From Amanita rubescens (lineage: Eukaryota > Basidiomycota > Agaricomycetes > Agaricales > Amanitaceae), in assembly GCA_015039365.1 (NCBI GenBank), contig WION01000113.1, positions 88,266 to 152,265 on the forward strand: a DNA stretch of 64,000 nt, read 5' to 3'. The translations under genes were made by a program, and so were the position numbers. Of this stretch, positions 910 through 25,246 are shown piece by piece. Under the pieces are notes generated by a model that saw only the letters and a list, made by a program, of their open reading frames with translations, did no database searches and was not told where the DNA came from. The stretch's first letter is position 1, and each line of letters starts with the position of its first letter.

Positions 910-1771
910 CTGTAACAGGATTCCATCCGTTACAGTGCTTCGACTCCTCAATTGTTTTCCCGGCCATGCTGCCACCTGGGGAGATACAGTAATCCGCGCT
1001 ATGGCCCGGCTTTTTGCAGTTACTGCATGAAGGGATATTTGGTTTGGTCTTGGCCAGAAGGGCGGTAGCAGGGGAAGAGGTGGTTTTGTCGGCATTGAGT
1101 AGGCGTCGCTCGTTTTCAAGGAGACGGATGATGTCGGTGGGTGTATAGAGTTTATCTTTTGTTGATTGGGAGATATTGTGATTGACAGTTGTCCTTAGAT
1201 GCGCATAGTTGGTCAGGCCACTCAGAATGAATAGACAGGCCATAATGTCAGCAGTCAGATCCCCCATCGCCAGGGTTTGCTTGGCTAGCTGATAGGCCTT
1301 AGTTGCTGACGTGGGTAAGGGTTCATCGTGATGTGAAAACTGAAGAGACATCCCTTCGTGGATCAGTTGGAGCTGGCGCATAGGACCTTCATTGACATGT
1401 CGCTTCTCGAGTTTATCCCAGCACGCTTTCGAGGTGGTGACAGCTTCGTCAGTGAGTACAAATTCCTGCTCGCTTTCATCAATGTTTTGAAGTATAAAGT
1501 TAAGTGCGAGGTCATCGTTTTCGCCCCAGTTGGCATGCGCGCGTGGCTCTGTGGTCGCAGCGGGTCGGGTGATAGTACCCTTGACATACCCTTTCAATCA
1601 GTTGAGGCCTAGCGCAATATTCATTGTTTGGCTCCATTCTTTCCAGTTGCCCTTGACGTGGTCGAGACGGTCGCCAGCAAAGGTCTGAGAGATGGATAGA
1701 CGAGGGATAGATGGACGATAAGTATCGGGATCATAAGTCCCGGACGAGTTCGGATTCTCTGATCCAGACAT
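910..1771 (-). pseudogene. copia gag with in-frame stop
   Basis: Gag packages element RNA in virus-like particles. The ATG at 1771 opens a frame that runs 57 codons to a UGA at 1598-1600, immediately followed in the same frame by a further open stretch to about 910. Near the C-terminus there is a CCHC zinc knuckle (C-x2-C-x4-H-x4-C; residues CSNCKKPGHSADYC, about 1000-1045), followed by the GGSMAGKTIEE segment usual for fungal copia gag. The N-terminal part has the helical gag pattern (KGNWKEWSQTM). The stop truncates the protein before nearly all of gag. The sequence after EESK no longer resembles the family, so the 3' end is also damaged. No host gene is implied. Confidence 0.85.
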
Positions 1772-3381: not shown

Positions 3382-3902
3382 AACAGCATGAGAAGAGTCC
3401 CTGATAGTGAGGTTGAAATCACCTCATCCACATCAGGTATTACTGGCATGACTTGCTGGACTGGTCACAAAGAGCTCTGCTGCACCAAAATGGTATCTGA
3501 TGTGTCACTCTCTCATCACCTGGACTCCAGGTAGCACACCCTTTTGTTCAGCAGCCTTTGCCATTTGGTCAAGCTCAATGTCCATCTGGTTGGAGGGCTT
3601 TAACTGGCAGCAGCTATGGAGCTTGGTGGAGAACAACCTTGTTGGGTTGGGACCAGAATGGGTGGCAGGGGGCATACCTATTTGTCCAACATGACATGGC
3701 AAGTGCATGTGGTGAGCCGTTAGAGACAGGGTGATGGGAGGTGCATAGGGGGCCATTGGAGGTGCTAGTTAGTGATTGGAACCAGAATGGGTGGCAGGGG
3801 GGGGGCTTGCCTGGGTGACGTGGCATGTTGTTGATTGCATGCAGTGGGTCATTGGGGATGGCAAGGATGGGGAGTTTACGCACTGTGATGATCAAGTAGG
3901 AC
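3382..3902. other. gene-free stretch left of the KDZ composite
   Basis: No gene is supported. A direct repeat ACCAGAATGGGTGGCAGGGG occurs at about 3652 and 3781. This sequence continues at 22,317 once the composite transposon is removed. Confidence 0.5.
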
Positions 3903-3910
3903 ATCATGCA
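3903..3910 (+). repeat. 8-bp target-site duplication, left, outer KDZ copy
   Basis: ATCATGCA directly precedes the terminal CACCTGCAC at 3911 and recurs directly after the opposite terminus at 22309-22316. Eight bp is the duplication length known for Zisupton/Dileera-type elements. Confidence 0.9.
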
Positions 3911-4423
3911 CACCTGCACAGCCGGCTATTTAACGTTAATTAGCATTGTCCTAATTTAGCTAGTCCACTGCTTTTTTGCATCACATCCTTGATATTCCCA
4001 TACTGCTCGATATCCCTCGCCGTAGCTAGCTATACTTGGGCACAATATACTCCCTTCCCGCCGCTCCTGCGCCCGCGCCCCATCTATAATAGGAATAAGC
4101 CGCGTAAGCACGCCAGGAGCGCTTCCCACCGTCGTCCCCGTCGTCCGCAATGTCTCCCACGCCTCCCCCGCCGCTATTGACATCGTCCCCATCGCTGGCA
4201 TCCATATATAAGCTGAAATTGTGGCTTGAGGCATGATATCCGACCCCTCCCGCACCCGTCCCTTCTATAATAGGAACAAGCCACGTGAGCATGCCAAGAG
4301 GGCCTTCCCACCATCGTCCCCGTCGTCGGCGACATCTCCCACGTCTCCCTCGCTGCTATTGGCATCGTCAGCATCCTGACATCATATATAAGCAGAAAAA
4401 GGGCTGCGGGGCATTATATTACA
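3911..4423 (+). repeat. left terminal inverted repeat, outer KDZ copy
   Basis: About 513 bp, GC-rich, starting CACCTGCACAGCC. It contains two TATAATAGGAA(T/C)AAGCC motifs (4086 and 4266) and CTCCC/CGTCGTCC-rich stretches. It differs from the equivalent end of the inner copy (13114-13626) at about eight positions, all transitions and most at CpG. The many overlapping open frames here are a by-product of composition, not genes. Confidence 0.85.
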
Positions 4424-4431
4424 ATGCTGGC
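4424..4431 (+). repeat. 8-bp target-site duplication, left, inner KDZ copy
   Basis: ATGCTGGC, repeated at 13627-13634. It derives from the outer element's own terminal region. Confidence 0.92.
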
Positions 4432-4980
4432 CACCTGCACAGCCGGCTATTTAACGTTAATTAGCATTGTCCTAATTTAGCTAGTCCACTGCTTTTTTGC
4501 ATCACATCCTTGATATTCCCATACTGCTCGATATCCCTCGCCGTAGCTAGCTATACTTGGGCACAATATACTCCCTTCCCGCCGCTCCCACGCCCGCGCC
4601 CCATCTATAATAGGAATAAGCCGCATAAGCACGCCAGGAGCGCTTCCCACCGTCGTCCCCGTCGTCCGCGATGTCTCCCACGCCTCCCCCGCCGCTATTG
4701 ACATCGTCCCCGTCGTCCGCGATGTCTCCCACGCCTCCCCCGCCGCTATTGACATCATCCCCATCGCTGGCATCCACATATAAGCTGAAATTGTGGCTTG
4801 AGGCACGATATCCGACCCCTCCCGCACCCGTCCCTTCTATAATAGGAACAAGCCATGTGAGCATGCCAAGAGGGCCTTCCCACCGTCGTCCCTGTCGTCG
4901 GCAACATCTCCCACGTGTCCCTCACTGCTATTGGCAATATCAGCACCTGGCATCCATATATAAGCAGAAATCGTGGCCCC
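4432..4980 (+). repeat. left terminal inverted repeat, inner KDZ copy
   Basis: It shares about 540 imperfect bp with the right end (13114-13626) but carries an extra in-tandem copy of a 42-bp CGTCGTCCGCGATGTCTCCC-containing unit (about 4662-4745). Its mirror is 21760-22308. The TATAATAGGAA motif is repeated, and a related CTATAATTGGAAGTTG plus CCACGTCAGCATG lies at 5052-5090. Confidence 0.85.
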
Positions 4981-5253
4981 ATTGCAATAGATCCCGCCAT
5001 CGGCATCGCACATTATGTAAACTGCCTCACGAGTTTAAAATAAATTATCCTTCTATAATTGGAAGTTGAACGTGCCACGTCAGCATGTCGAACTGCAGGT
5101 CGTTGCTGTCGCCGCCATCCGTAATGAGTGGTGAACAGCAAAGCAAATGTCATGTATTTGAAGCCAAAAAAAAAACATATGTTGAGAAACGCGTACTATA
5201 CTATCAAAATGTTGTGATCTCATTGCTCGGATTCGGCGTGACAAGACTGATGC

Positions 5254-8200
5254 TCAGTCCTCGGGAGAGGTCTGGTATTGACCGTCTTGATCTGTAGAAA
5301 TGGAGAGCAGTTTGTAAGTGATATCACTGAGCACCAGATCGTCATCTTCGAGATCCGACATTAAATCATCATCCGGGCAAAGCTCGACTCGGGACTCGCT
5401 ACCACGTTCAGCTTGCTTTTCCTGCTGCACAGTCCTGGGATTTAGAGACAGAACACTTTGACCAGGGGTGATATTGCCTGTAAACCGAGGATTTTTGGCC
5501 AGCTTCTCGAAGCGCTGCACGTGCAATGCATTCGCGCGACCACGTTCCATACGGTATACTGAGATCTGGTGGGCGAAAATGGGGTTACTCTTCGCCAAGA
5601 TGGCTTCCTTTGCACATAAGAATTCAGTCTCATCGACGATGTAAGTGATCACCCGGCGAATTTCGACGTCGAGCCGTTTGATCTCTTCCTGTGCTCGTTC
5701 AACTTTGAAATATTGGTCCCGAAGTACCCTATTTAGGGGACACGCCCATGGCTTCTCCCGTACATCTTGCCGAGCATCGCGCAGGAGATCAAAATCTGAC
5801 AAGAATGCATAATCAACTACCTGCTCCCATGTTAAAGCAGGAGCAGGAGGATGAGCAGCGGCAGCCTCATTGTACTTGTCAAGAGCTTTCTTGATAGCAT
5901 GCGAGCGGGATTGAAGCGACTTGGCGATATGCCGCTGAAGCTTATAACCTGACATTATCATCAGTGGCTGATGCAAATGGAGTAAATATGACGCACAGAT
6001 GTCGGACATATTCATTTTCGTCAACTCAAACAGCCGGGACACAACCAGGGCCTCCAAGACATCCACTGCCCTGCGATAATCGCGCTGCTGAACCTTTTCT
6101 GCGGCAGCTGCCCACTCTGGAGACTCTGGGGTCCATCGTGACCTGATAAGAAGTTTGCGCTCTAATTCATGGACATGTTCTAAACATCTGTCGCGCTTCT
6201 CGAATGTTTGTCGGCGCTTTGTTTCTATTGCTCTTGTCCGGTCTCGTTGGTGAATATCTGACATGCTTAGGTTGAGGAAATTGGCGCTGCCCGCATCTAG
6301 TTCATTCCTAGTCCACTGTCAGGAAAATGCCAACGTAAAAGTTAAAAAAGGGTAATACACACTGATATTCCCCAAGTTCAACGAGCGCGCTATAGTAATC
6401 CATTTCCAAAGTCTCCTCAGGCGGTTCTGTTGCTAGATTCTCGAGATATTTTTTTTCCTCTTCGAGCCATGACATAAATGTGAATGCCGGGTCTGATATC
6501 TCTTTCTCATCCAATGTAAGCTTGAGAGACGGTTCGCTCTTGAGTATTTCTAACGCTTGCAGATAGTTGTTGACGAGAAATTTGCCTGAAAATCACGTGA
6601 GTCAGAAAGCAACACGTTTACATAATAACCGACTGAGGTTAGTATAAGTTTCAAAAGTGTCGGTGTGCCGCATGTAGTTGACAATACTTTGCTGTCAATG
6701 GAACACACTCGCATAGTGAACAGAGTTGGCGAGTGCGTTGGATTTTGAGAAAAACCTTTCACACCCTTCGAGATCCTCGAGGCCCAGTCCTTTAGTGTAT
6801 GTCGAAAGATGAGTTAATTGACACAACCGCCCATGCGCATGGCCGTGGAAGGATCCGACGAGTGAACGGAGATTGAGCTGGCTCGCAACCGGACCTAGTG
6901 GGCTTTTCTTGACAGTCGTTGCAAATTTGCACCCAATATCATATCCTACGCCAATATTGCTTCCGAATGCCTTGAGGAGAAGATCAACGACGGCGAGAGG
7001 ATATTTTGACCTGCCAGTAAAATGATTGATTGGAATGTAAACAAGAGCCGGAATAAACTTACAGTTCTCCGCTTCGCACCATGTCGGCAACAACAAGCGC
7101 AAATCCATGACGACAGAGTGCAAGAAAGATACCAGTCTCGTCGAATACGCCCCACATGCGAGAGGTGACACTATCAATCATGTTCTTCCATCGTGATGCA
7201 CATGGGTTGTGCTCGTCACTCTGTAACTCAGTATCAACATATTGACCAGTTCACTTCAAGAGGTAATTACTCACAGGCATCACCTTGACGAGTTCCTCTT
7301 CAATAACACCCTTAGCCCACTTATCCACTTCCTCCCGTGTCAGATAATAGTCGCCCGGGGTAGCGCGTGAGTCTGGTCGCTCATGACGCCGTTCATCCAC
7401 CTCAAAGTCATCTTCTGATTTCAGATCTCGTCGCATCCGCTTCAGTGAGTTGTTCCCGTCCATTGTGGTCAGTACGCTGAAGGTGAGCTCCTTCTCACCA
7501 TGAAGTTGATATGAACAAGCAGGACAGGCATTTTTAATGCGCCAGAGGGGGCCATCACGGTTTAATTCTTTCATGACTGCCTTTCGGCTCTCTTCAAGTA
7601 TTTTAAGGTAGACATCGTTGCATGTGGAGAATATGGTACTGTAGTTTGGTAAAAAGGACATCTAACATATATGAGTATGTAGACAAACTGAGGCTAGAGC
7701 GGACACGTACACCATGCAAATCAATTAAGCCCTTAACAAAAGGTTGTATGGCAAGGCAAGGGCACCGAGCATTAAGGTTCTTGTATAGTTCCAGAACGCG
7801 CGTAGATACTCCATAACTTGGTTGATAGGGAGCAGACGGGATGATGCCTTGGCGAACCAAAGCAGTGCCAATTGTTTTATCATTTTTGGACAAGGTATAT
7901 TTAACGTTGCGGGTGCCTGCTTCATTGTAAACGAATGGCTAAGACGATTGCATATTAAACTTACAGTATGTGTCAATCAATATTATATCTGCCGTTTTCT
8001 CTACCTCTTCTGATGATGATGCGGCGAGACTGTCCGTGAAACCCTCCTTATTTTCGCGGTTATTGTAACACCAGACATGATAAGCTGCCACTAGTGAGTC
8101 CATTTGAACCGCAAATCCTTCTACCAAACGTAATGTCCTATCACGACGCGTGCTTTGGTCATGACGTCGCTTTGAGCTATAACCGGGTGAGCTAAATGCT

Positions 8201-8554
8201 TATTAGAGTAGTAGTAGCTTATACTTACATTTCCTTCTTGATATCGGTCCTAAGAAGCTCGACGAACTCGCCACCAGCGTGGCTGAATTCAATTGGTTGT
8301 GTACCATCGAGGATATTGTCTGCCATTGTTAGGTCTTGCATCACCTCATCGTCACCAAGCGCCGGGTCACAAGAACCTGTTGCCACCCTGTCTAATAGTC
8401 CCCGATTGAGCGATTGGTCGTCGTGAAACAGCTGAAATACCTTGACGCATCTGGCGCTGCAGCATCAGATTCTTGGCCCGCTCTATCGAAACGTTCTTCG
8501 GTCAAATAGCCCTTCCTCGTCCTCTTGTAAGCATTGCAATGTCGTCTGTGCCAT
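5254..8554 (-). pseudogene. KDZ transposase, inner copy
   Basis: Exact mirror of 18186-21486, with the same eight-exon structure and the same lesions: stops in the first exon frame at 8483-8485 and 8465-8467, and the in-frame UGA at 6695-6697. The last exon (complement 5254-6307) is intact and ends in an acidic tail. See the entry at 18186 for domains. Because the lesions are shared with the other copy, they existed before this copy was inserted, or were spread afterwards by gene conversion. Confidence 0.88.
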
Positions 8555-9333
8555 AATTGCGATACTTCTTTGATTTGAAAGAACGAGAGTTGAATGCCAT
8601 GTTTACCGAGCTGTGATCGTGGCTCAAGCATGTCAGAAGTCTGTAAACGAGATCACGTGGTAGATGAGATGACTGATGATCGATGAGATAAAATATACGG
8701 TTCAATCTCAACGTGTTGAACTTGCAATGGACACGAGGTGATCGTGAATTTAAGAAGAAGAAACTGACTTGGAATAGTTTTCAAGGCAGCGACAGGGAGA
8801 GAAAACTGCCAGTTGCAGTGAAAGTAATACTACTCATTCCAAATCGTCCGTTCCTCTTTCTGATGCAGTTCCAGACACTCTCAAATCACTAAGAAAGCAT
8901 GTTCAACTGCAATACGCGATACATATAATTACGTGTGATCACTGATAAGACTGTGAGAGTGAACGAGTACTGATCGCAAGGGATGAGGGATGACGAAGGT
9001 TGGTGGGAGTGATTAGTACAAGTCGAGCCGGTGAAATAGATAGCCTCATCATGTATTCATTCCTGAGCACGCGCTGAGCCACAAGCTCTAATCGAGCTGA
9101 CAGGTTGTTATCCCAATCAATTTGCTGCAATATCACTCGTACTACATATGTAATAACATACATTGGTGCAACACCCGCAACTCAAACTGCATATCAGGAC
9201 ATGATTTACGAGATCACCTGTACGAGGTGACAAGTTTTACATTCCCATGAATTCGCTCCTTCAATTTGCAACGCTAGCCGACATATATCAATTTCAGGAC
9301 CAGATAGTTGTATTTACAATGTGATCTAAAATT
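8555..9333. other. intergenic region inside the inner KDZ copy
   Basis: This lies upstream of the transposase and downstream of the viroplasmin-like gene. Only short open frames are present, with no recognisable domain. It probably holds the transposase promoter and 5' leader. Mirror of 17407-18185. Confidence 0.5.
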
Positions 9334-10468
9334 CTAAATACGGTGTACTTCGCCTGCCATGTACTTCTCAACGAAAAGCCGGTTTGCTGCCACTTCGCCC
9401 CTCACACAGCGAAGATCTATGATTGGCGAAGCTCCGACCGCAGCTCTAGCATCTTCCCTGTCAATAGTGTTAATGCCCAGTTGTCTGAGGATAACTTCCG
9501 ATAACTTACATATTACGGTAAACACCAGGGTTCTCACCTTGAAGTATGATCCAATAGAAATCATCTGCACCTGGTTGGATGGGGGGATGGGTATTGGCTG
9601 TCGCGGGGGAAGTTTGGTAATAACTTTGATACGTGCGGGGGGCAAATATAGAGGGCCGGGCCCTCTGGTCATCACCAGCCTGAATACTAGCATTTGTCGA
9701 CACGGGGGAATTGGCAGCCCGGACATGGAGAACATCGCTGCTGGCCTGAGTACGATTCACTGGTACAGGAGTGATGTTGCTAGACTGAGCGCGGTTCGCA
9801 GGCGCTGGCGCAATGCCACCGGCCTGGGCACGATTTGCCGGCACAGGAGCAATGCTGCCAGCCCGAACGCGACTCGCTGGCACAGGAGTGACGCTGCCAG
9901 CCCGAACGCGACTCGCCGGCACAGGAACGATGTTGCCGGCCTGAACACGATTTGCTGGTGCGGAGGCGGCTCTATTTGTTGTAGTATGGGAAATTGGACC
10001 GGCAGGCAATTGGGGTGGGACAGGCTCTCGTTGCTGACATCCCTCAAGGTAAGTCTTCCATGACTCTTGAGCCACTTCCAATGTTGTAAAAGACTTGAAA
10101 CTAGCCCCTGAAAAGCGGTCGGTAAGGCGGGTGACAAGTCCCCTGCAACGATGGTTTAGGCAGTGGCCAGCGGGAATCGCTATGGCTTACCAGTTGTCAA
10201 AAATACCTGTTTGACGTCCACGGTACACAACATAAAAGTCTCTGCCTTCCGTGCTAAGGTTAATATCCTCGAAATGCTCAAAGTACTCGAGGTCTTCGAC
10301 GGAAAGGTATTCCATGGATGATTCGACACTTGGAGGCGGCGTTGGTTCGCGGGGCTGCCTCGCCCGGTTTGCTGGTGGCTGCGGAGGTGGCTTTCCTACA
10401 AGATAGTAAATGGTCAACTGTTAAGTTTGTAAGAAATACGGGGGCTAGTACTACTCACTGGGGGACAT
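9334..10468 (-). CDS. two-domain RNase H1-N/viroplasmin-like protein, inner copy
   Basis: Mirror of 16272-17406, apparently identical in sequence, with exons complement(10459-10468, 10191-10395, 9510-10142, 9334-9457). It is transcribed away from the 690-aa accessory gene, with 146 bp between the two start codons. See the entry at 16272 for domains. Confidence 0.72.
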
Positions 10469-10614
10469 GCGAACTGAGGCAACGTGAGCGTTGAAAAAAG
10501 CACAAGTTCCGTGTGAACTATAAAACAGTTGGGGCTCCGAATGTTCCAGGCTAACTTAACTAGGGTGATCAATTGGCCATTCGAACCTCACCCACTTGGT
10601 CCCTCTCCGAGTCC
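10469..10614. promoter_or_regulatory. divergent promoter region inside the inner KDZ copy
   Basis: These 146 bp separate the start codons of the viroplasmin-like gene (-) and the 690-aa gene (+). Both must be transcribed from here. No TATA box is obvious. The mirror is 16126-16271 in the outer copy. Confidence 0.5.
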
Positions 10615-12997
10615 ATGAACTTCGGATGGGACCAGCAGACACCTGCAGGTGCATACCAAATTTTTGGTAGCTATAAAAGTGCTGTCCCCTTGAGCCAACT
10701 CTCTCCTGAGCTTGAGCCTTGGCCATGGCAGTCGCAACCTCTCGACCCTCTTCAAGCCGGAGGCTGGCATTCTGACCCACAGCAAATCGATTCTTGCGGT
10801 GGTACTTCGTCATCTAGCACCCCTGCGCCGTCCTCGCTTTCCAACACACAGCACATTCCTTTTGACCAAAGAAATACTCTGTCCGGCAGTCAACATTCGA
10901 TAGAAATAGAAACCGACCTTCGTTCACGATACTCTCATTACAATACACTCGCTCGGCCTAATTATGCAGCCGGCCAGGCCCACCAAGCTATCTATGTCAA
11001 CAATAACATTAATACCTGTGGATATCAAGTCAGCAATAACACACCTAATACCCATCTTAATCAAAGCATTACCAATTCCCGGGATCCATCCCATGGTAGC
11101 AATACGCTTCAGCCCATGAACGTGGATCCAAAAACATTAAATATAGGTCACCAGCAACGGTAAGTATCCGTACTCACATCTGATAACCTGCTATAATAAG
11201 ATATATAGGGACAACGTTGCTCGCGACGCACCAATAGACTTTGCTTTTGTTCCCGAGGATCCAGGATCCCAATATGAGCATACAGGTCACGGTAATGACA
11301 AGGATGGCGCAAATGAGCTGACGCATTCGGGCGACAACAATGATACGGAGAGCAGCCCAAATCTACAAGACTTGGATCCTTCAAACTTGTTTGTAAGTTG
11401 CACAGTATCGCAGCCACTGGCAATAACTCACTATAGATTTTATAGTCTTTTGATGATGAGCCTGACGACGACGATGCGCTTGCTGAGTATGCGATTATTC
11501 TCAATCATCAGAGGGAATTGATGGCGGCCACCGATAAGGAAAATAATGCCTTAGATAATTCTACAGTGAACCTGAGCACGTGGGCTGAGCGTAACTTTGG
11601 TAAACCCATCCAGCCAATCCGACACCGTACCTCTCAACCGAAGGCTCTCGCCGAGAAAGAGACCGCAAGATTGAAGAGCGAGAAGATGCGGGAGAATGCT
11701 AAAGCTTTACAAACAGAGGTCAAGACGCTCCACGCGTTTCTAGAGAAGGCAATTAACGACCTCGCCACAAAATACAAGAAAAAGAAATCATACATCTCGA
11801 CTCTCGTTCATGCAAAGTCCACGCTGAAAGCCAAGCGCGCTCCAAATCTGAAAAACGCTCTACTCCACCGAAAGGCTAGAGAAGTCAATCAAGGTCTGTA
11901 CCCCATTTACTCTGTCACACTTCCTTACGGAGCGTGATCCTTAGATCGCCCCAACGGTGAACGCTTGTCCCTACTTGAAATTCAAAAGATGGTAGACGAT
12001 GACAAAGATATCGAGAACATCTCAGAAGAGCAGAAGAACGAGTTGATAAAGGATCTCAAAGCTTACCGCGAGTTGAAGCAAACAGGCTCACGTGCCTCTA
12101 GTCTTTCGGTAGCTCAAGATGTTAGACAGACGATGCAACGTATAACGATTGAAGTAAGTGTCTCACACTGAAGAGAAGATCTATTTCTGACTTTGGCTCA
12201 GTTGCAGCACCTCCATCTTCGAACGGGTACCTGCTCGGTTCTCTTCGTCTCCAAATCCCACATTGATGATCAGACGATTCCCGGATGGGCGGCAACGGGC
12301 GAATCTGCTTCATTCTTTCTTGACGTTCTCAGGGTGGACGTATGGGATGTTCTTAGGAAATACGAGCAGTGGGTGTGCTCAAAAGATCAAAGTGAGTCCA
12401 CGGCATCGCTCCGCTTTTGTAGAATGTATGTGACATTATTTTAGGCAAAGCTAAGACGGACACGTTTAAAGCTATTCGCTCCGAATGCACTACCATCATT
12501 ACTGAAGGGTTAAGTAAGCCTCTATCAGAACTTGTTACATTCGCGCCGCTAATGATCTCAAATTCAAAGGACAAATTCTGAAATCCGACAACGTTATGAT
12601 GAACTATGTGAACTACGAGAAGGTCATTATTCAGAAACACCACGTAAAGCTCGTAGGGTGGCCCAAGAATGTCAAGTTTGTCACGCCGGCAAATCTATCA
12701 AGCGTTGATGAGGTCCGCACGCTCAGACATGCGTTGAAGTCCAATGAATGCCACTGGGTTCAATTATCTGAGGCTGAAGTCGGGGAGAACATGGCCTCTA
12801 TTGCAGAACGCGAAGCTGCTGGGGAACAGGTGGGCCGAAAACGCAAGCAACGTTCCGACAAAGGGAAACCCAAACAGCGTAAGAAATCCGCTGGCAGCGG
12901 CGCCACCCGCTTGGCGACATCATCGAAATTCAAGAGCAAAGCTTTATTGAGTGATACAGAAGGAGAAGAGTCTGATCGTGGTTCTGAGAGCCCATAG
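10615..12997 (+). CDS. 690-aa KDZ accessory protein of unknown function, inner copy
   Basis: Exons 10615-11159, 11209-11392, 11446-11893, 11945-12153, 12202-12391, 12445-12513 and 12570-12997 total 2,073 nt (690 aa plus stop), all with GT..AG ends. The ATG at 10615 is chosen over a non-ATG start upstream. The N-terminal third is Ser/Gln/Asn-rich and low in complexity. The middle has a basic coiled-coil-like region (KALAEKETARLKSEKMRENA). A compact region follows (LLEIQKMVDDDKDIENISEE; TGTCSVLFVSKSHIDDQTIP; VDVWDVLRKYEQW; MMNYVNYEKVIIQKHHVKLV), and then a Lys/Arg-rich nuclear-signal-like tail ending in acidic Ser. The central block resembles a protein found repeatedly in Agaricomycete genomes near transposons, but I know no function for it. 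It is intact in both copies. Confidence 0.75.
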
Positions 12998-13113
12998 TAT
13001 ACCCAAGTACCTCCCAATTGTTTTTTTTTAAATTTATATATAGTTTTAATGGTTACGACGTGGCACATTCTAATTATAGAACATAGTGTGACTTATTTTT
13101 GGGCTGCCAGCAT

Positions 13114-13626
13114 TGTAATATAATGCCCCGCAGCCCTTTTTCTGCTTATATATGATGTCAGGATGCCAACGATGCCAATAGCAGCGAGGGAGACGTGGGA
13201 GATGTCGCCGACGACGGGGACGACGGTGGGAAGGCCCTCTTGGCATGCTCACGTGGCTTGTTCCTATTATAGAAGGGACGGGTGCGGGAGGGGTCGGATA
13301 TCATGCCTCAAGCCACAATTTCAGCTTATATATGGATGCCAGCGATGGGGACAATGTCAATAGCGGCGGGGGAGGCGTGGGAGACATCGCGGACGACGGG
13401 GACGACGGTGGGAAGCGCTCCCGGCGTGCTTACGCGGCTTATTCCTATTATAGATGGGGCGCGGGCGCGGGAGCGGCAGGAAGGGAGTATATTGTGCCCA
13501 AGTATAGCTAGCTACGGCGAGGGATATCGAGCAGTATGGGAATATCAAGGATGTGATGCAAAAAAGCAGTGGACTAGCTAAATTAGGACAATGCTAATTA
13601 ACGTTAAATAGCCGGCTGTGCAGGTG
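13114..13626 (-). repeat. right terminal inverted repeat, inner KDZ copy (palindrome spacer)
   Basis: This is the non-palindromic 513-bp centre between the two 8.7-kb arms. It reads as the reverse complement of 3911-4423 with about eight transitions, and ends in GTGCAGGTG at 13626. Confidence 0.85.
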
Positions 13627-13634
13627 ATGCTGGC
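13627..13634 (+). repeat. 8-bp target-site duplication, right, inner KDZ copy
   Basis: ATGCTGGC, identical to 4424-4431. The outer element resumes at 13635. Confidence 0.92.
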
Positions 13635-13742
13635 AGCCCAAAAATAAGTCACACTATGTTCTATAATTAGAATGTGCCACGTCGTAACCATTAAAACTAT
13701 ATATAAATTTTAAAAAAAACAATTGGGAGGTACTTGGGTATA

Positions 13743-16125
13743 CTATGGGCTCTCAGAACCACGATCAGACTCTTCTCCTTCTGTATCACTCAATAAAGCT
13801 TTGCTCTTGAATTTCGATGATGTCGCCAAGCGGGTGGCGCCGCTGCCAGCGGATTTCTTACGCTGTTTGGGTTTCCCTTTGTCGGAACGTTGCTTGCGTT
13901 TTCGGCCCACCTGTTCCCCAGCAGCTTCGCGTTCTGCAATAGAGGCCATGTTCTCCCCGACTTCAGCCTCAGATAATTGAACCCAGTGGCATTCATTGGA
14001 CTTCAACGCATGTCTGAGCGTGCGGACCTCATCAACGCTTGATAGATTTGCCGGCGTGACAAACTTGACATTCTTGGGCCACCCTACGAGCTTTACGTGG
14101 TGTTTCTGAATAATGACCTTCTCGTAGTTCACATAGTTCATCATAACGTTGTCGGATTTCAGAATTTGTCCTTTGAATTTGAGATCATTAGCGGCGCGAA
14201 TGTAACAAGTTCTGATAGAGGCTTACTTAACCCTTCAGTAATGATGGTAGTGCATTCGGAGCGAATAGCTTTAAACGTGTCCGTCTTAGCTTTGCCTAAA
14301 ATAATGTCACATACATTCTACAAAAGCGGAGCGATGCCGTGGACTCACTTTGATCTTTTGAGCACACCCACTGCTCGTATTTCCTAAGAACATCCCATAC
14401 GTCCACCCTGAGAACGTCAAGAAAGAATGAAGCAGATTCGCCCGTTGCCGCCCATCCGGGAATCGTCTGATCATCAATGTGGGATTTGGAGACGAAGAGA
14501 ACCGAGCAGGTACCCGTTCGAAGATGGAGGTGCTGCAACTGAGCCAAAGTCAGAAATAGATCTTCTCTTCAGTGTGAGACACTTACTTCAATCGTTATAC
14601 GTTGCATCGTCTGTCTAACATCTTGAGCTACCGAAAGACTAGAGGCACGTGAGCCTGTTTGCTTCAACTCGCGGTAAGCTTTGAGATCCTTTATCAACTC
14701 GTTCTTCTGCTCTTCTGAGATGTTCTCGATATCTTTGTCATCGTCTACCATCTTTTGAATTTCAAGTAGGGACAAGCGTTCACCGTTGGGGCGATCTAAG
14801 GATCACGCTCCGTAAGGAAGTGTGACAGAGTAAATGGGGTACAGACCTTGATTGACTTCTCTAGCCTTTCGGTGGAGTAGAGCGTTTTTCAGATTTGGAG
14901 CGCGCTTGGCTTTCAGCGTGGACTTTGCATGAACGAGAGTCGAGATGTATGATTTCTTTTTCTTGTATTTTGTGGCGAGGTCGTTAATTGCCTTCTCTAG
15001 AAACGCGTGGAGCGTCTTGACCTCTGTTTGTAAAGCTTTAGCATTCTCCCGCATCTTCTCGCTCTTCAATCTTGCGGTCTCTTTCTCGGCGAGAGCCTTC
15101 GGTTGAGAGGTACGGTGTCGGATTGGCTGGATGGGTTTACCAAAGTTACGCTCAGCCCACGTGCTCAGGTTCACTGTAGAATTATCTAAGGCATTATTTT
15201 CCTTATCGGTGGCCGCCATCAATTCCCTCTGATGATTGAGAATAATCGCATACTCAGCAAGCGCATCGTCGTCGTCAGGCTCATCATCAAAAGACTATAA
15301 AATCTATAGTGAGTTATTGCCAGTGGCTGCGATACTGTGCAACTTACAAACAAGTTTGAAGGATCCAAGTCTTGTAGATTTGGGCTGCTCTCCGTATCAT
15401 TGTTGTCGCCCGAATGCGTCAGCTCATTTGCGCCATCCTTGTCATTACCGTGACCTGTATGCTCATATTGGGATCCTGGATCCTCGGGAACAAAAGCAAA
15501 GTCTATTGGTGCGTCGCGAGCAACGTTGTCCCTATATATCTTATTATAGCAGGTTATCAGATGTGAGTACGGATACTTACCGTTGCTGGTGACCTATATT
15601 TAATGTTTTTGGATCCACGTTCATGGGCTGAAGCGTATTGCTACCATGGGATGGATCCCGGGAATTGGTAATGCTTTGATTAAGATGGGTATTAGGTGTG
15701 TTATTGCTGACTTGATATCCACAGGTATTAATGTTATTGTTGACATAGATAGCTTGGTGGGCCTGGCCGGCTGCATAATTAGGCCGAGCGAGTGTATTGT
15801 AATGAGAGTATCGTGAACGAAGGTCGGTTTCTATTTCTATCGAATGTTGACTGCCGGACAGAGTATTTCTTTGGTCAAAAGGAATGTGCTGTGTGTTGGA
15901 AAGCGAGGACGGCGCAGGGGTGCTAGATGACGAAGTACCACCGCAAGAATCGATTTGCTGTGGGTCAGAATGCCAGCCTCCGGCTTGAAGAGGGTCGAGA
16001 GGTTGCGACTGCCATGGCCAAGGCTCAAGCTCAGGAGAGAGTTGGCTCAAGGGGACAGCACTTTTATAGCTACCAAAAATTTGGTATGCACCTGCAGGTG
16101 TCTGCTGGTCCCATCCGAAGTTCAT
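13743..16125 (-). CDS. 690-aa KDZ accessory protein of unknown function, outer copy
   Basis: Mirror of 10615-12997 with the same exon structure (complement 15581-16125, 15348-15531, 14847-15294, 14587-14795, 14349-14538, 14227-14295, 13743-14170). No difference from the inner copy was noticed in the coding part. It starts 146 bp from the viroplasmin-like gene and is divergent from it. Its 3' end lies about 100 bp from the junction with the inner copy, so the nested insertion did not interrupt the reading frame but may have removed its natural downstream sequence. Confidence 0.75.
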
Positions 16126-16271
16126 GGACTCGGAGAGGGACCAAGTGGGTGAGGTTCGAATGGCCAATTGATCACCCTAGTTAAGTTAGCCTGGAACATT
16201 CGGAGCCCCAACTGTTTTATAGTTCACACGGAACTTGTGCTTTTTTCAACGCTCACGTTGCCTCAGTTCGC

Positions 16272-17406
16272 ATGTCCCCCAGTGAGTAGTACTAGCCCCC
16301 GTATTTCTTACAAACTTAACAGTTGACCATTTACTATCTTGTAGGAAAGCCACCTCCGCAGCCACCAGCAAACCGGGCGAGGCAGCCCCGCGAACCAACG
16401 CCGCCTCCAAGTGTCGAATCATCCATGGAATACCTTTCCGTCGAAGACCTCGAGTACTTTGAGCATTTCGAGGATATTAACCTTAGCACGGAAGGCAGAG
16501 ACTTTTATGTTGTGTACCGTGGACGTCAAACAGGTATTTTTGACAACTGGTAAGCCATAGCGATTCCCGCTGGCCACTGCCTAAACCATCGTTGCAGGGG
16601 ACTTGTCACCCGCCTTACCGACCGCTTTTCAGGGGCTAGTTTCAAGTCTTTTACAACATTGGAAGTGGCTCAAGAGTCATGGAAGACTTACCTTGAGGGA
16701 TGTCAGCAACGAGAGCCTGTCCCACCCCAATTGCCTGCCGGTCCAATTTCCCATACTACAACAAATAGAGCCGCCTCCGCACCAGCAAATCGTGTTCAGG
16801 CCGGCAACATCGTTCCTGTGCCGGCGAGTCGCGTTCGGGCTGGCAGCGTCACTCCTGTGCCAGCGAGTCGCGTTCGGGCTGGCAGCATTGCTCCTGTGCC
16901 GGCAAATCGTGCCCAGGCCGGTGGCATTGCGCCAGCGCCTGCGAACCGCGCTCAGTCTAGCAACATCACTCCTGTACCAGTGAATCGTACTCAGGCCAGC
17001 AGCGATGTTCTCCATGTCCGGGCTGCCAATTCCCCCGTGTCGACAAATGCTAGTATTCAGGCTGGTGATGACCAGAGGGCCCGGCCCTCTATATTTGCCC
17101 CCCGCACGTATCAAAGTTATTACCAAACTTCCCCCGCGACAGCCAATACCCATCCCCCCATCCAACCAGGTGCAGATGATTTCTATTGGATCATACTTCA
17201 AGGTGAGAACCCTGGTGTTTACCGTAATATGTAAGTTATCGGAAGTTATCCTCAGACAACTGGGCATTAACACTATTGACAGGGAAGATGCTAGAGCTGC
17301 GGTCGGAGCTTCGCCAATCATAGATCTTCGCTGTGTGAGGGGCGAAGTGGCAGCAAACCGGCTTTTCGTTGAGAAGTACATGGCAGGCGAAGTACACCGT
17401 ATTTAG
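16272..17406 (+). CDS. two-domain RNase H1-N/viroplasmin-like protein, outer copy
   Basis: Exons 16272-16281, 16345-16549, 16598-17230 and 17283-17406 sum to 972 nt (323 aa plus stop). Residues about 57-106 (FYVVYRGRQTGIFDNW, then FSGASFKSFTTLEVAQ) match the small domain shared by eukaryotic RNase H1 N-termini and caulimovirus viroplasmin, which binds RNA/DNA hybrid or dsRNA. The C-terminal 60 residues (FYWIILQGENPGVYRN, ASPIIDLRCVRG) look like a second, more divergent copy. Between them are six 13-residue repeats of the pattern PVPA(S/N)R(V/A)(R/Q)AGS (about 16779-17009). No RNase H catalytic domain is present. It is intact in both element copies, unlike the transposase. A nucleic-acid-binding accessory role in transposition is an inference. 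Confidence 0.75.
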
Positions 17407-18185
17407 AATTTTAGATCACATTGTAAATACAACTATCTGGTCCTGAAATTGATATATGTCGGCTAGCGTTGCAAATTGAAGGAGCGAATTCATGGGAATG
17501 TAAAACTTGTCACCTCGTACAGGTGATCTCGTAAATCATGTCCTGATATGCAGTTTGAGTTGCGGGTGTTGCACCAATGTATGTTATTACATATGTAGTA
17601 CGAGTGATATTGCAGCAAATTGATTGGGATAACAACCTGTCAGCTCGATTAGAGCTTGTGGCTCAGCGCGTGCTCAGGAATGAATACATGATGAGGCTAT
17701 CTATTTCACCGGCTCGACTTGTACTAATCACTCCCACCAACCTTCGTCATCCCTCATCCCTTGCGATCAGTACTCGTTCACTCTCACAGTCTTATCAGTG
17801 ATCACACGTAATTATATGTATCGCGTATTGCAGTTGAACATGCTTTCTTAGTGATTTGAGAGTGTCTGGAACTGCATCAGAAAGAGGAACGGACGATTTG
17901 GAATGAGTAGTATTACTTTCACTGCAACTGGCAGTTTTCTCTCCCTGTCGCTGCCTTGAAAACTATTCCAAGTCAGTTTCTTCTTCTTAAATTCACGATC
18001 ACCTCGTGTCCATTGCAAGTTCAACACGTTGAGATTGAACCGTATATTTTATCTCATCGATCATCAGTCATCTCATCTACCACGTGATCTCGTTTACAGA
18101 CTTCTGACATGCTTGAGCCACGATCACAGCTCGGTAAACATGGCATTCAACTCTCGTTCTTTCAAATCAAAGAAGTATCGCAATT
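17407..18185. other. intergenic region inside the outer KDZ copy
   Basis: This is the 779 bp between the viroplasmin-like gene and the transposase. No domain is recognised. A further 5' transposase exon could hide here, since other KDZ proteins have longer N-termini, but none is identifiable. Confidence 0.5.
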
Positions 18186-21100
18186 ATGGCACAGACGACA
18201 TTGCAATGCTTACAAGAGGACGAGGAAGGGCTATTTGACCGAAGAACGTTTCGATAGAGCGGGCCAAGAATCTGATGCTGCAGCGCCAGATGCGTCAAGG
18301 TATTTCAGCTGTTTCACGACGACCAATCGCTCAATCGGGGACTATTAGACAGGGTGGCAACAGGTTCTTGTGACCCGGCGCTTGGTGACGATGAGGTGAT
18401 GCAAGACCTAACAATGGCAGACAATATCCTCGATGGTACACAACCAATTGAATTCAGCCACGCTGGTGGCGAGTTCGTCGAGCTTCTTAGGACCGATATC
18501 AAGAAGGAAATGTAAGTATAAGCTACTACTACTCTAATAAGCATTTAGCTCACCCGGTTATAGCTCAAAGCGACGTCATGACCAAAGCACGCGTCGTGAT
18601 AGGACATTACGTTTGGTAGAAGGATTTGCGGTTCAAATGGACTCACTAGTGGCAGCTTATCATGTCTGGTGTTACAATAACCGCGAAAATAAGGAGGGTT
18701 TCACGGACAGTCTCGCCGCATCATCATCAGAAGAGGTAGAGAAAACGGCAGATATAATATTGATTGACACATACTGTAAGTTTAATATGCAATCGTCTTA
18801 GCCATTCGTTTACAATGAAGCAGGCACCCGCAACGTTAAATATACCTTGTCCAAAAATGATAAAACAATTGGCACTGCTTTGGTTCGCCAAGGCATCATC
18901 CCGTCTGCTCCCTATCAACCAAGTTATGGAGTATCTACGCGCGTTCTGGAACTATACAAGAACCTTAATGCTCGGTGCCCTTGCCTTGCCATACAACCTT
19001 TTGTTAAGGGCTTAATTGATTTGCATGGTGTACGTGTCCGCTCTAGCCTCAGTTTGTCTACATACTCATATATGTTAGATGTCCTTTTTACCAAACTACA
19101 GTACCATATTCTCCACATGCAACGATGTCTACCTTAAAATACTTGAAGAGAGCCGAAAGGCAGTCATGAAAGAATTAAACCGTGATGGCCCCCTCTGGCG
19201 CATTAAAAATGCCTGTCCTGCTTGTTCATATCAACTTCATGGTGAGAAGGAGCTCACCTTCAGCGTACTGACCACAATGGACGGGAACAACTCACTGAAG
19301 CGGATGCGACGAGATCTGAAATCAGAAGATGACTTTGAGGTGGATGAACGGCGTCATGAGCGACCAGACTCACGCGCTACCCCGGGCGACTATTATCTGA
19401 CACGGGAGGAAGTGGATAAGTGGGCTAAGGGTGTTATTGAAGAGGAACTCGTCAAGGTGATGCCTGTGAGTAATTACCTCTTGAAGTGAACTGGTCAATA
19501 TGTTGATACTGAGTTACAGAGTGACGAGCACAACCCATGTGCATCACGATGGAAGAACATGATTGATAGTGTCACCTCTCGCATGTGGGGCGTATTCGAC
19601 GAGACTGGTATCTTTCTTGCACTCTGTCGTCATGGATTTGCGCTTGTTGTTGCCGACATGGTGCGAAGCGGAGAACTGTAAGTTTATTCCGGCTCTTGTT
19701 TACATTCCAATCAATCATTTTACTGGCAGGTCAAAATATCCTCTCGCCGTCGTTGATCTTCTCCTCAAGGCATTCGGAAGCAATATTGGCGTAGGATATG
19801 ATATTGGGTGCAAATTTGCAACGACTGTCAAGAAAAGCCCACTAGGTCCGGTTGCGAGCCAGCTCAATCTCCGTTCACTCGTCGGATCCTTCCACGGCCA
19901 TGCGCATGGGCGGTTGTGTCAATTAACTCATCTTTCGACATACACTAAAGGACTGGGCCTCGAGGATCTCGAAGGGTGTGAAAGGTTTTTCTCAAAATCC
20001 AACGCACTCGCCAACTCTGTTCACTATGCGAGTGTGTTCCATTGACAGCAAAGTATTGTCAACTACATGCGGCACACCGACACTTTTGAAACTTATACTA
20101 ACCTCAGTCGGTTATTATGTAAACGTGTTGCTTTCTGACTCACGTGATTTTCAGGCAAATTTCTCGTCAACAACTATCTGCAAGCGTTAGAAATACTCAA
20201 GAGCGAACCGTCTCTCAAGCTTACATTGGATGAGAAAGAGATATCAGACCCGGCATTCACATTTATGTCATGGCTCGAAGAGGAAAAAAAATATCTCGAG
20301 AATCTAGCAACAGAACCGCCTGAGGAGACTTTGGAAATGGATTACTATAGCGCGCTCGTTGAACTTGGGGAATATCAGTGTGTATTACCCTTTTTTAACT
20401 TTTACGTTGGCATTTTCCTGACAGTGGACTAGGAATGAACTAGATGCGGGCAGCGCCAATTTCCTCAACCTAAGCATGTCAGATATTCACCAACGAGACC
20501 GGACAAGAGCAATAGAAACAAAGCGCCGACAAACATTCGAGAAGCGCGACAGATGTTTAGAACATGTCCATGAATTAGAGCGCAAACTTCTTATCAGGTC
20601 ACGATGGACCCCAGAGTCTCCAGAGTGGGCAGCTGCCGCAGAAAAGGTTCAGCAGCGCGATTATCGCAGGGCAGTGGATGTCTTGGAGGCCCTGGTTGTG
20701 TCCCGGCTGTTTGAGTTGACGAAAATGAATATGTCCGACATCTGTGCGTCATATTTACTCCATTTGCATCAGCCACTGATGATAATGTCAGGTTATAAGC
20801 TTCAGCGGCATATCGCCAAGTCGCTTCAATCCCGCTCGCATGCTATCAAGAAAGCTCTTGACAAGTACAATGAGGCTGCCGCTGCTCATCCTCCTGCTCC
20901 TGCTTTAACATGGGAGCAGGTAGTTGATTATGCATTCTTGTCAGATTTTGATCTCCTGCGCGATGCTCGGCAAGATGTACGGGAGAAGCCATGGGCGTGT
21001 CCCCTAAATAGGGTACTTCGGGACCAATATTTCAAAGTTGAACGAGCACAGGAAGAGATCAAACGGCTCGACGTCGAAATTCGCCGGGTGATCACTTACA

Positions 21101-21486
21101 TCGTCGATGAGACTGAATTCTTATGTGCAAAGGAAGCCATCTTGGCGAAGAGTAACCCCATTTTCGCCCACCAGATCTCAGTATACCGTATGGAACGTGG
21201 TCGCGCGAATGCATTGCACGTGCAGCGCTTCGAGAAGCTGGCCAAAAATCCTCGGTTTACAGGCAATATCACCCCTGGTCAAAGTGTTCTGTCTCTAAAT
21301 CCCAGGACTGTGCAGCAGGAAAAGCAAGCTGAACGTGGTAGCGAGTCCCGAGTCGAGCTTTGCCCGGATGATGATTTAATGTCGGATCTCGAAGATGACG
21401 ATCTGGTGCTCAGTGATATCACTTACAAACTGCTCTCCATTTCTACAGATCAAGACGGTCAATACCAGACCTCTCCCGAGGACTGA
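18186..21486 (+). pseudogene. KDZ transposase, outer copy
   Basis: RNase-H-fold transposase of the Kyakuja-Dileera-Zisupton class. Proposed exons are 18186-18511, 18549-18775, 18824-19029, 19079-19465, 19520-19677, 19730-20106, 20155-20377 and 20433-21486; phases agree from exon 2 onward. Family landmarks in order: HDQSTRRDRTLRLVEG; LVRQGIIPSAPYQP; DLHG; a cysteine pair ACPAC followed by TTMDGNNSLKR; FDETGIFLALCRHG; GYDIGCKF; SFHGHAHGRLCQL; LEDLEGCERFFS; and FMSWLEEEKKYL with the likely catalytic Glu. Two defects are present. The first exon needs frame changes around TAG 18255-18257 and TGA 18273-18275. A UGA at 20043-20045 replaces the Arg that normally follows SVFH (CGA to TGA is one CpG-type transition). 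The upstream ATG is uncertain. Confidence 0.88.
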
Positions 21487-21759
21487 GCATCAGTCTTGTC
21501 ACGCCGAATCCGAGCAATGAGATCACAACATTTTGATAGTATAGTACGCGTTTCTCAACATATGTTTTTTTTTTGGCTTCAAATACATGACATTTGCTTT
21601 GCTGTTCACCACTCATTACGGATGGCGGCGACAGCAACGACCTGCAGTTCGACATGCTGACGTGGCACGTTCAACTTCCAATTATAGAAGGATAATTTAT
21701 TTTAAACTCGTGAGGCAGTTTACATAATGTGCGATGCCGATGGCGGGATCTATTGCAAT

Positions 21760-22308
21760 GGGGCCACGATTTCTGCTTATATATGGATGCCAGGTGCTGA
21801 TATTGCCAATAGCAGTGAGGGACACGTGGGAGATGTTGCCGACGACAGGGACGACGGTGGGAAGGCCCTCTTGGCATGCTCACATGGCTTGTTCCTATTA
21901 TAGAAGGGACGGGTGCGGGAGGGGTCGGATATCGTGCCTCAAGCCACAATTTCAGCTTATATGTGGATGCCAGCGATGGGGATGATGTCAATAGCGGCAG
22001 GGGAGGCGTGGGAGACATCGCGGACGACGGGGACGATGTCAATAGCGGCGGGGGAGGCGTGGGAGACATCGCGGACGACGGGGACGACGGTGGGAAGCGC
22101 TCCTGGCGTGCTTATGCGGCTTATTCCTATTATAGATGGGGCGCGGGCGTGGGAGCGGCGGGAAGGGAGTATATTGTGCCCAAGTATAGCTAGCTACGGC
22201 GAGGGATATCGAGCAGTATGGGAATATCAAGGATGTGATGCAAAAAAGCAGTGGACTAGCTAAATTAGGACAATGCTAATTAACGTTAAATAGCCGGCTG
22301 TGCAGGTG
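21760..22308 (-). repeat. right terminal inverted repeat, outer KDZ copy
   Basis: Mirror of 4432-4980 with a single difference noticed (at 21999/4741, a CpG to TpG type change). It includes the 42-bp tandem duplication and ends GTGCAGGTG at 22308. Confidence 0.85.
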
Positions 22309-22316
22309 ATCATGCA
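22309..22316 (+). repeat. 8-bp target-site duplication, right, outer KDZ copy
   Basis: ATCATGCA directly follows the terminal GTGCAGGTG that ends at 22308 and matches 3903-3910. Confidence 0.9.
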
Positions 22317-22646: not shown

Positions 22647-24577
22647 TTGTCCTTGGAACTAGAGAATTTTCACAATGTCCAAAATGTGCCAGTTGGAGCC
22701 TTGGCAGCAGACAATGGTTCTCAAATCATGTTCACTGCTCTTAACCAAGTGTTACTCCCAGCCACTGAGGAGTACATTGTTGACAACTTTGTTTTCCACC
22801 TGCTGGATCTCATGGCTGGCAGTGAAGCTGGATTGGAAGTTGGAACTGGCCAAGAAGGACCCTATGTGCACTGCAGCTCAACATGGGTGGCCATATTATG
22901 CATACTTGGCCAAACATCTGTGTTGCTGGCCATATTGGGAATAATCTGAGGATGTTGGTCACTGTCGAAGAAAGCAAGCTTAACCAGGCACTGGATAGAA
23001 TTGAGCCACAGCTCATCGGTGCTGAGGCAATTGCTGCCTACCAACACAACATTGCAGCAGAAGCTCCATCAGGAGGTGACTGGCAAGGATATCAAGATGA
23101 TATCCTTTTCTATGGGCTCATCATGCAGGGCTTATGCCCACATTTCTACAGGATCAACATCCATCATGAGCTGGCAAACAGCATATGGGACTTCTCCCAA
23201 CAGTCCAGACAGAAGTTTTTCGATACACCCCAGTGCAGCAAAACCCAGGTGATGCTTTCAGCACAATGTGAAACCTTGCAGAATGGCAAGTTGCCCTACA
23301 GGCATTCTGGATATTTAGAAACAGGCTTGCAGCACACACCGCTGAGCTTGCAGAAGGGATGCAATAGTGTAATCTATCAATTACATCAGGAAGAACTGTT
23401 TCTACAATAGTTTTAATGTCTATTATGTAGTATTACCTTGCTGAGCACAGCACAATGTCATTCATCACTCAAACAACCAAGTGTCTGAACCACCTCTAAG
23501 TTGTCTTTCTAGCTGAACACATACGCCTATCAATGGGCAGACTGGAACAGTGGTGTTGACAGCCAGGTAAAGTGGAAGTTATCATCAAGCATCTCTCAAC
23601 TAATGCTCTGAATATAGGGCCTTGGTGAAAGTACCCTTGTACTTGACACTTTTGCGAATGGCTACTTAATGCAGCTCAGAGAATATGAAGATGATCATGA
23701 AAACAAGAAACCTGTTGATGCTCTAATCCTGGTGATGCAAGTGGTACAAAGTTATGTTTACCAGTCACTCACAAAACTAACTATTTTGGGTTGGCCATGC
23801 ACTTGAACAGGAGAGTTATCAAAGAAAGAACAAAAGTTTTCAGTAGATAACTATGGTGACCTCACGGTCAAGGTGAAGAAGGAGGGTACAATGAGTACCA
23901 GGAAGATGATGTGCATGCAACCATCTTTGTCCAGACATTGCACATGCTGAGCAATGCTCAGTGGGATAATCTCATTGTCAATCCAACAAAACCACCAAGT
24001 CTTGAGTCCACTTGACGAGTGCTGCTACCCTTGATGAAGAGGATGAAGATCCAGACAGCAATTTCATTATGGATTTCGACTATTTTGTGAGCACTTTCTA
24101 ACTTTATGCAGTCTCAATCAGTCACTCTTGAGAAAACCACAACTTTTGCTCATGTGTTACAATGGTTTTCATTCAATAACATTTGCTCTCAAGTTTGCAA
24201 GTTCATGTCAACCTGTTTTCCATTGCTCTCAAGAAATCCACCATGTAGTTTGCATTCACTATCATTCACTTTTGCCATCTTTTGCTCCTCCCAATTGCTA
24301 TTGTTCACTCTCGGTACAATGTATTCCGTTCATACAAATGATAATAAATAGCAATTTTTTGTGTCCCATTCAATCTTTGATAAATGCTTAATAGAGCAGG
24401 GAACTCAAGAGTGACCCAAGTGCTCTCAGAGCTGATTTGACCCCTCTGAGAGTGATGTACCTTGCAGAAGGCACTCTTGATGACATTGACAGCTGTGGTG
24501 ACTTTGGTAAGCTGCCCAGTGCCAAAGACAATGTTCTCCTTGAGCAGCAGCTGAATTTTGATGATATCAAACTGTGA
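22647..24577 (+). pseudogene. CpG-depleted relic of an unrecognised multi-exon gene
   Basis: Protein-like sequence is spread over several pieces: 22647-22946 (QNVPVGALAADNGSQIM, LVTVEES continuing in the next frame), 22922-23410 (APSGGDWQGYQDDILFYGL, RINIHHELANS) and 24400-24577 (LRVMYLAEGTLDDIDSCGDF). The switch from ILGQTSVLLAILG to LRMLVTVEESKLN at about 22945 requires a frameshift with no splice signals. CpG is almost absent, as expected after long methylation-driven decay. I do not recognise the family. It may be a dead transposon gene or a dead host gene. The stretch 23411-24399 holds short open pieces that may be further exons. Confidence 0.5.
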
Positions 24578-24960: not shown

Positions 24961-25246
24961 CATCAGGAAATTGGGGAAAAATCTGATTGCATCTGACACT
25001 GCTGGAACACTGGCTGTCTGATTGTCTGATTGTCTAACCAGCACTGGAACACTAATTGTCTGACAGCCTGATTGTCTGACAAGTGCCAGATGAGGTGTCA
25101 GATGTTGTCAGACAATGTCAGACAATCAGGCTGTCAGACAATTAGTGTTCCAGTGCTGGTTAGACAATCAGACAATCAGACAGCCAGTGTTCCAGCAGTG
25201 TCAGATGCAGTCAGATGAGATCAGATTTTTCCCCAATTTGCTGATG
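24961..25246. repeat. foldback/MITE-like hairpin, 120-130 bp arms
   Basis: The left arm 24961-25080 and right arm 25117-25246 are near-perfect reverse complements around a 36-bp loop; the right arm has about ten extra bases. The arms are built from the submotif GTCTGATT / CAGACAAT, reiterated at least ten times. No gene lies inside. No clear target duplication is visible. Confidence 0.8.

Follow-up and report, generated by a model that had tools for sequence, protein, structure and literature searches.

A transposon nested in a copy of its own family

We analysed a 64,000-bp stretch of the Amanita rubescens genome, referred to below as the window (contig C17, positions 88266-152265, in a 75.7-Mb assembly of 786 contigs). 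It contains a KDZ transposon inserted, in inverse orientation, into another copy of the same family. Positions are those of the window, and positions preceded by E refer to the element (E1-9195) in the orientation of the outer copy. Within the inverted arms window position p is mirrored at 26740 − p. The nest consists of the following features:

3903-3910, plus strand: outer target site duplication, left, ATCATGCA, which the empty haplotype (contig C101) has only once
3911-4431, plus strand: 5' part of the outer element (E1-521), outside the long mirrored arms
4424-4431, plus strand: inner target site duplication, left, ATGCTGGC
4432-13626, minus strand: inner KDZ element, complete, 9,195 bp, reversed
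13106-13113, minus strand: intact (unsplit) inner target inside the inner copy, ATGCTGGC
13627-13634, plus strand: inner target site duplication, right, ATGCTGGC
13635-22308, plus strand: remainder of the outer element (E522-9195)
22309-22316, plus strand: outer target site duplication, right, ATCATGCA
4432-13113, no strand: left arm of the palindrome; 2 of 8,682 positions differ from the right arm
13627-22308, no strand: right arm of the palindrome
13114-13626, no strand: spacer of the palindrome, 513 bp, most of the inner 5' end

We reversed the inner copy (4432-13626) and aligned it to the two joined parts of the outer copy (3911-4431 and 13635-22308). Both sequences were 9,195 bp long and showed 99.891% identity with 10 mismatches and 0 gaps, in line with the equal lengths and the gapless identity of about 99.9% that an initial annotation of this DNA had expected. 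The two 8-bp duplications are different and both perfect (ATCATGCA outer, ATGCTGGC inner), and the unsplit inner target was found inside the inner element. The inverted arms extend over 8,682 bp with 2 mismatches and are centred on 13,370. The nested pair of KDZ elements in opposite orientation is real, with a match far beyond chance, and the duplications, the unsplit target and the alignment bear out the order of insertion, the inverse orientation and the mechanism given in the initial annotation. Its statement that the element had inserted "into its own copy" is right in the sense of a copy of the same family, which need not mean that the inner element descended from the outer one. The inner target is indeed situated inside the outer element, at E514-521, though not within the terminal repeat as had been stated: it starts 26 bp past the inner border of the 5' repeat (E1-488).

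The empty site that had been proposed as a further check was found on C101, an allelic contig of the same assembly. There the outer flanks are joined with one ATCATGCA and without a footprint (218 aligned bp, 2 mismatches). C101 and C17 are collinear to the left and right of the nest, apart from insertions in either contig, and a short block shared by the two (3797-3920) shows 2 mismatches. Given the single ATCATGCA on C101, the outer insertion is a true transposition carried by one of the haplotypes. Unless the element was precisely excised from the other, it postdates the split of the two lineages of this stretch. We took the assembly to contain both haplotypes because the RNA polymerase beta-subunit family is found in three contig pairs (C90/C301, C361/C364 and C35/C208); further matches lie on C331 and C696.

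Placement of the differences between the two copies

The 10 mismatches are distributed very unevenly along the element. Eight are located in E1-521, one at E598 and one at E8886, which leaves 2 differences across the 8,674 bp of E522-9195. CpG transitions account for 9 of the 10, where the adjacent sites 459/460, which read CA or TG depending on the copy, were scored as two changes of one former CpG. Counting CpG positions, 8 of 84 changed in E1-521 compared to only 1 of 936 in E522-9195 (Fisher p = 1.3e-8). Counting CpG dinucleotides instead, the numbers are 7 of 42 and 1 of 468 (p = 1.2e-7). Non-CpG sites in E522-9195 changed once in 7,738, and between E599 and E8885 we observed no change at all (0 of 875 CpG and 0 of 7,412 other positions). 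At the rate of the 5' ends we would expect ∼89 CpG differences in the arms; the one observed corresponds to about one ninetieth of the 5'-end CpG divergence. A CpG-poor interior was rejected as the cause, as 856 CpG positions remain in E522-8674. All eight mismatches in E1-521 are transitions at a present or former CpG and are thus unlikely to be sequencing errors. The divergence changes abruptly between E460 and E598, i.e. within 138 of the 9,195 bp, and this interval contains the inner insertion site. The arms are more alike than the adjoining homologous sequence of the same two copies (8/84 vs 1/936), as would be expected of a gene-converting palindrome.

A third copy served as a control for local mutability. 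It is located on contig C264 (28838-32063), is truncated and covers E5919-9195 only, and is the sole close copy that we found beyond the nest, a count that represents a lower bound. We detected 24 differences between C264 and both arms, of which 21 are CpG transitions distributed from E6120 to E9037; the arms agree with each other at all 24. With 21 CpG transitions separating C264 from the arms, it is clear that CpGs in the interior of the arms decay. Judging by the direction of the CpG changes, 12 of the 21 decayed in the arms (shared by both) and 9 in C264. Over the same stretch, of 374 CpG sites (counted in the nested copies alone), 1 separates the two arms, compared to 21 that separate C264 from them (p = 8.4e-6). 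At CpG sites the 5' ends (8/84), in turn, are about as divergent as C264 and the arms (21/374, p = 0.21), and no more divergent than the haplotypes in the transposable element (TE) island at window positions 2365-32208 (15/102, p = 0.37). It is only the arms that depart from this pattern. We rejected a hotspot of mutation in the element ends as the sole cause since interior CpGs decay relative to C264 (E5919-9195). The mismatch at E8886 falls in a 51-bp stretch that C264 does not have. For the 5' ends, where C264 offers no sequence, CpG logic alone assigns 5 decayed sites to the outer copy and 3 to the inner copy.

The initial annotation had regarded the nested pair as datable from its near-identity. 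This does not hold, because the differences are concentrated outside the mirrored arms, and we rejected dating by whole-element identity on the placement of the mismatches.

Origin of the near-identical arms

We consider it probable, with moderate confidence, that the arms were homogenised after nesting, most likely through arm-to-arm gene conversion. The reason is the gap between the ∼89 CpG differences expected and the one seen, together with the evidence from C264 that CpGs in the arms do decay. The history of the locus would then be as follows. A 9.2-kb KDZ transposon entered one haplotype at ATCATGCA, a site that is still empty in the other. A second copy of the same family inserted inversely at ATGCTGGC, which created an 8.7-kb inverted repeat with a 513-bp spacer. 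Both copies would subsequently have been silent and would have lost CpGs through C-to-T changes. The two 5' ends lie outside any single contiguous mirrored tract, and their changes would have built up in each copy independently. Recombination between the mirrored arms may have erased the differences there in one or a few long conversion tracts. Both arms would have ended up sharing their decayed bases, among them an in-frame TGA of the transposase. Gene conversion also predicts a step in divergence at the insertion site, because this is where contiguous mirror homology starts.

If conversion erased the differences between the arms, their identity dates the last conversion. The identity of the arms would be a record of the last homogenisation, or an assembly effect, and not of the insertion. 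The 5' ends would then be the better estimate of how long both copies have been separate. Which of the two, arms or 5' ends, comes closer to the time of the inner insertion would hinge on any divergence between the copies that predates nesting.

Several points weigh against gene conversion. If only the 5' and 3' ends of the element are compared, the contrast is weak (8/84 vs 1/80, p = 0.034; excluding the CA/TG site 6/82 vs 1/80, p = 0.12), and the case therefore rests on the whole arm. The C264 control spans only 3.3 of the 8.7 kb of the arm. Conversion did not preserve the CpGs either, as the arms show 12 decayed sites compared to 9 in C264 over the same stretch. We are dealing with a single such locus in one assembly, and with the assembly as the sole basis both the identity of the arms and the divergence step could be assembly effects. 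Noisy long reads can get mixed between inverted arms. According to the methods described in the presumed source paper, its genomes were sequenced with Illumina, PacBio or both, and Falcon or Celera was used on the PacBio reads (PMC7550596), which also counts in favour of the main rival explanation.

This explanation accepts the nest as real and holds that error correction or polishing confused reads of one arm with those of the other, so that the printed arms are a common consensus, whereas the 5' ends retain the true sequence. Such mixing would end where contiguous mirror homology ends, as we observed, and the surviving differences E598 and E8886 sit ∼80 and 310 bp from the ends of the arms. 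However, the final 309 bp of the arms, which adjoin non-mirrored sequence, are identical too. Elsewhere the assembly kept similar sequences apart: the haplotypes differ at 22 bases in 10,316 aligned bp of the TE island (7 blocks of ≥250 bp), and two KDZ copies on contig C504 keep 2 differences in 2,998 bp, though they are ∼72 kb apart and not mirrored. Neither the C17-C101 comparison nor C504 involves a mirrored pair, and hence both are indirect evidence against read mixing. Overall we judge an artefact confined to the arms to be unlikely, but far from negligible.

Another possibility is a young inner copy that is chimaeric, i.e. a very recent copy of the outer element that swapped its 5' end with a different member of the family, either at insertion or earlier. 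This, too, would yield bodies that are identical, down to the decayed CpGs they share, and 5' ends that have diverged. The swap point, though, would need to fall by chance within the 138-bp interval around the insertion site (∼1.5% of the element), and we found no donor 5' end in the assembly: a search with the terminal 23-mer (≤3 mismatches) returned 5 sites, namely the four ends of the nest and C264. We regard such a swap as improbable.

Two simpler accounts fare worse. In a simple young nest, two recent insertions would have been followed by random mutations and near-identity would reflect age. The 99.89% identity and the perfect duplications fit this, but the placement of the mismatches does not, as a region with 8.2% of the CpG sites holds 8 of the 9 CpG changes (binomial P = 1.8e-8). 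Regional mutability is no explanation, given that interior CpGs decay relative to C264, and this account is very unlikely. Large inverted repeats with short spacers are a familiar type of artefact, so the whole inverted repeat might stem from a chimaeric, folded-back read with no second insertion; we give this practically no credence, since both arms stop at element termini, the two 8-bp duplications are perfect yet unlike each other, the target is found unsplit within the inner copy and 8 differences separate the 5' ends.

Gene conversion between the arms, our preferred explanation, has a parallel in palindrome P6 of the human Y chromosome, where long inverted arms are >99.9% identical and conversion tracts are reported to average 2 kb and to reach >9 kb (PMC3723533). 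In contrast to P6, the palindrome described here arose by self-nesting of a transposon in a mushroom, and its conversion is inferred from one assembly. The P6 study also describes a bias towards G/C and the ancestral state (PMC3723533), whereas the arms of the nest are no less decayed than C264 (12 vs 9). The restriction of C-to-T changes in transposons largely to CpG has been described for Microbotryum and, weakly, for two rusts (PMC4352252), and a CpG bias of such changes in transposons was also reported for Tricholoma matsutake (PMC6980582). The C-to-T changes in the nest are likewise largely confined to CpG. Kojima, citing earlier work, states that hypermutation was not detected in Agaricomycotina (PMC12730594), which contrasts with the report for Tricholoma.

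We tentatively suggest, with rather less confidence than a balanced bet would call for, that a locus resembling a Y palindrome can originate in a mushroom when a DNA transposon inserts inversely into its own kind, with conversion outpacing very fast CpG decay. If this were true, conversion over nearly the whole 8.7-kb arm would keep the copies in step and would spread broken alleles, such as the transposase TGA, in the same way as intact ones. One locus would have two clocks, of which the CpG clock of the unpaired 5' ends would run fast and that of the arms would be reset, and conversion rates could be read from natural populations. If reads confirm the arms, the locus would provide a natural assay of arm-to-arm conversion against CpG decay in a dikaryotic fungus. 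In general, inversely nested copies of the same family may not be datable from their pairwise identity. The type of element is already known; its arrangement here is unusually legible, and what stands out is how the arms contrast with the ends. Among the titles and abstract openings listed in literature searches of limited coverage, none concerned a self-nested KDZ element with conversion.

The element, its relatives and its surroundings

The element belongs to the KDZ superfamily, as the initial annotation had proposed, based on a PF18758 match of 131.3 bits. Its terminal inverted repeats measure 488 bp (5', E1-488) and 539 bp (3', E8657-9195), and the gap in size is mainly due to one additional 51-bp tandem unit in the 3' repeat. 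The repeats and the coding content are arranged as follows:

3911-4398, plus strand: outer 5' terminal inverted repeat, E1-488
21770-22308, plus strand: outer 3' terminal inverted repeat, E8657-9195
13139-13626, minus strand: inner 5' terminal inverted repeat, E1-488 (coordinates carried over from the outer copy)
4432-4970, minus strand: inner 3' terminal inverted repeat, E8657-9195, with the extra 51-bp tandem unit (coordinates carried over from the outer copy)
5257-10420, minus strand: inner putative transposase gene, in pieces (approximate, inferred limits)
16320-21483, plus strand: outer putative transposase gene, in pieces (mirror of 5257-10420)
6698-7177, minus strand: KDZ domain piece PF18758, E 5.4e-38, 131.3 bits (cut-off 26.6)
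7254-7661, minus strand: second KDZ domain piece PF18758, E 2.5e-5, 24.5 bits, just under the 26.6 cut-off
6695-6697, minus strand: in-frame TGA within the KDZ domain match, inner copy
20043-20045, plus strand: in-frame TGA within the KDZ domain match, outer copy, same site as in the inner copy
10564-12994, plus strand: second gene of the inner copy, divergent orientation, in pieces (approximate, inferred limits)
13746-16176, minus strand: second gene of the outer copy (mirror of 10564-12994)

The inner transposase starts with an RNase H1 N-terminal-type motif, which is divided between 10190-10420 and 9509-10186, followed by a CxC-like stretch, the KDZ domain and a conserved C-terminal part. 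At 7606-7938 CxC1 scored 17.5 bits and CxC3 13.9 bits, each under its cut-off. The TGA in the KDZ domain is common to both nested copies; the corresponding match on C264 has no stop. For the 354-aa C-terminal frame of the transposase we found at least 170 relatives at E ≤ 0.001 among 7,994 scored candidates. Among the best 120 of these relatives the named hosts are mushroom-forming fungi, and 7 carry PF18758. The second gene is conserved in related sequences and part of it matches contig C46 at 88% DNA identity. A search with its 159-aa frame gave 54 candidates, 10 of them relatives. Two of these relatives, P0121 and P0126, have longest contigs of 9,349 and 12,211 bp, the same as the transposase relatives P0002 and P0040. 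This suggests that the layout of transposase and second gene is conserved. A TET/JBP cargo was sought and not found: the element has 43 frames of ≥75 aa from stop to stop, and Tet_JBP showed no match in the 31 that were scanned, while a genome search gave 4 sub-threshold matches, none of them on C17.

The nested element agrees with the description of Zisupton, which has 8-bp duplications and terminal inverted repeats, and a Dileera element is likewise described as making 8-bp duplications (PMC12730594); the nested element is a candidate for the Zisupton/Dileera type. Kyakuja is excluded on its published definition, which specifies duplications of 7 bp, ends of the CA..TG form and the absence of terminal inverted repeats (PMC12730594). 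The CA..TG ends are the only feature in common, whereas the duplications of the nested element are 8 bp long and terminal inverted repeats are present.

A 1,448-bp non-autonomous relative with similar ends (CACCTGTACAGC) is located at C223:1443949-1445396 and is flanked by the 8-bp duplication TTGCGTCC. With two full-length copies, an empty allele and this small relative, the locus defines the ends, target size and layout of the KDZ family. PF18758 gave 126 matches across the genome, 121 of them over the cut-off; these are pieces and not loci. We also compared three pairs of other KDZ copies over ∼3 kb, all of them young, and each pair showed 2 CpG and 0-1 other differences.

The 22 base differences between the haplotypes in the TE island are made up of 15 CpG transitions (102 CpG positions) and 7 others (10,214 non-CpG positions). 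In the left and right flanks together 151 CpG transitions were observed in 6,240 CpG positions, and the other differences amounted to 218 in 18,677 and 201 in 26,381. The TE island is far more alike between the haplotypes than its surroundings, yet far more CpG-decayed. These sums exclude blocks of <250 bp, plus-strand blocks and one 722-bp block left of the window (0 CpG, 3 differences). The RNA polymerase beta matches on C331 and C696 are long, with no or one break, which suggests that the assembly includes bacterial contigs. The PF00145 DNA methylase family has three matches over the cut-off and one of them is on C331.

Insertions specific to C101 were found opposite window positions 3797-3804, 22688-22694, 27677-27684 and 31456-31465. 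They include two copies of a 1,148-bp element that show 1 difference (99.91%) and lie ∼490 bp apart, not counting inserted DNA, as well as insertions of 8,136 bp (8-bp end overlap) and 1,552 bp (10-bp end overlap). The TE island has apparently gained several insertions after the haplotypes separated. Conversely, a 664-bp segment at 29419-30082 is present on C17 and missing from C101. At the left end of the window (1-1597, minus strand) we observed pieces of a Copia-type retrotransposon (Retrotran_gag_2, Pol_BBD). Finally, positions 24981-25216 form a 101-bp inverted repeat, 99% complementary and with a 34-bp spacer, which is possibly a small fold-back element.

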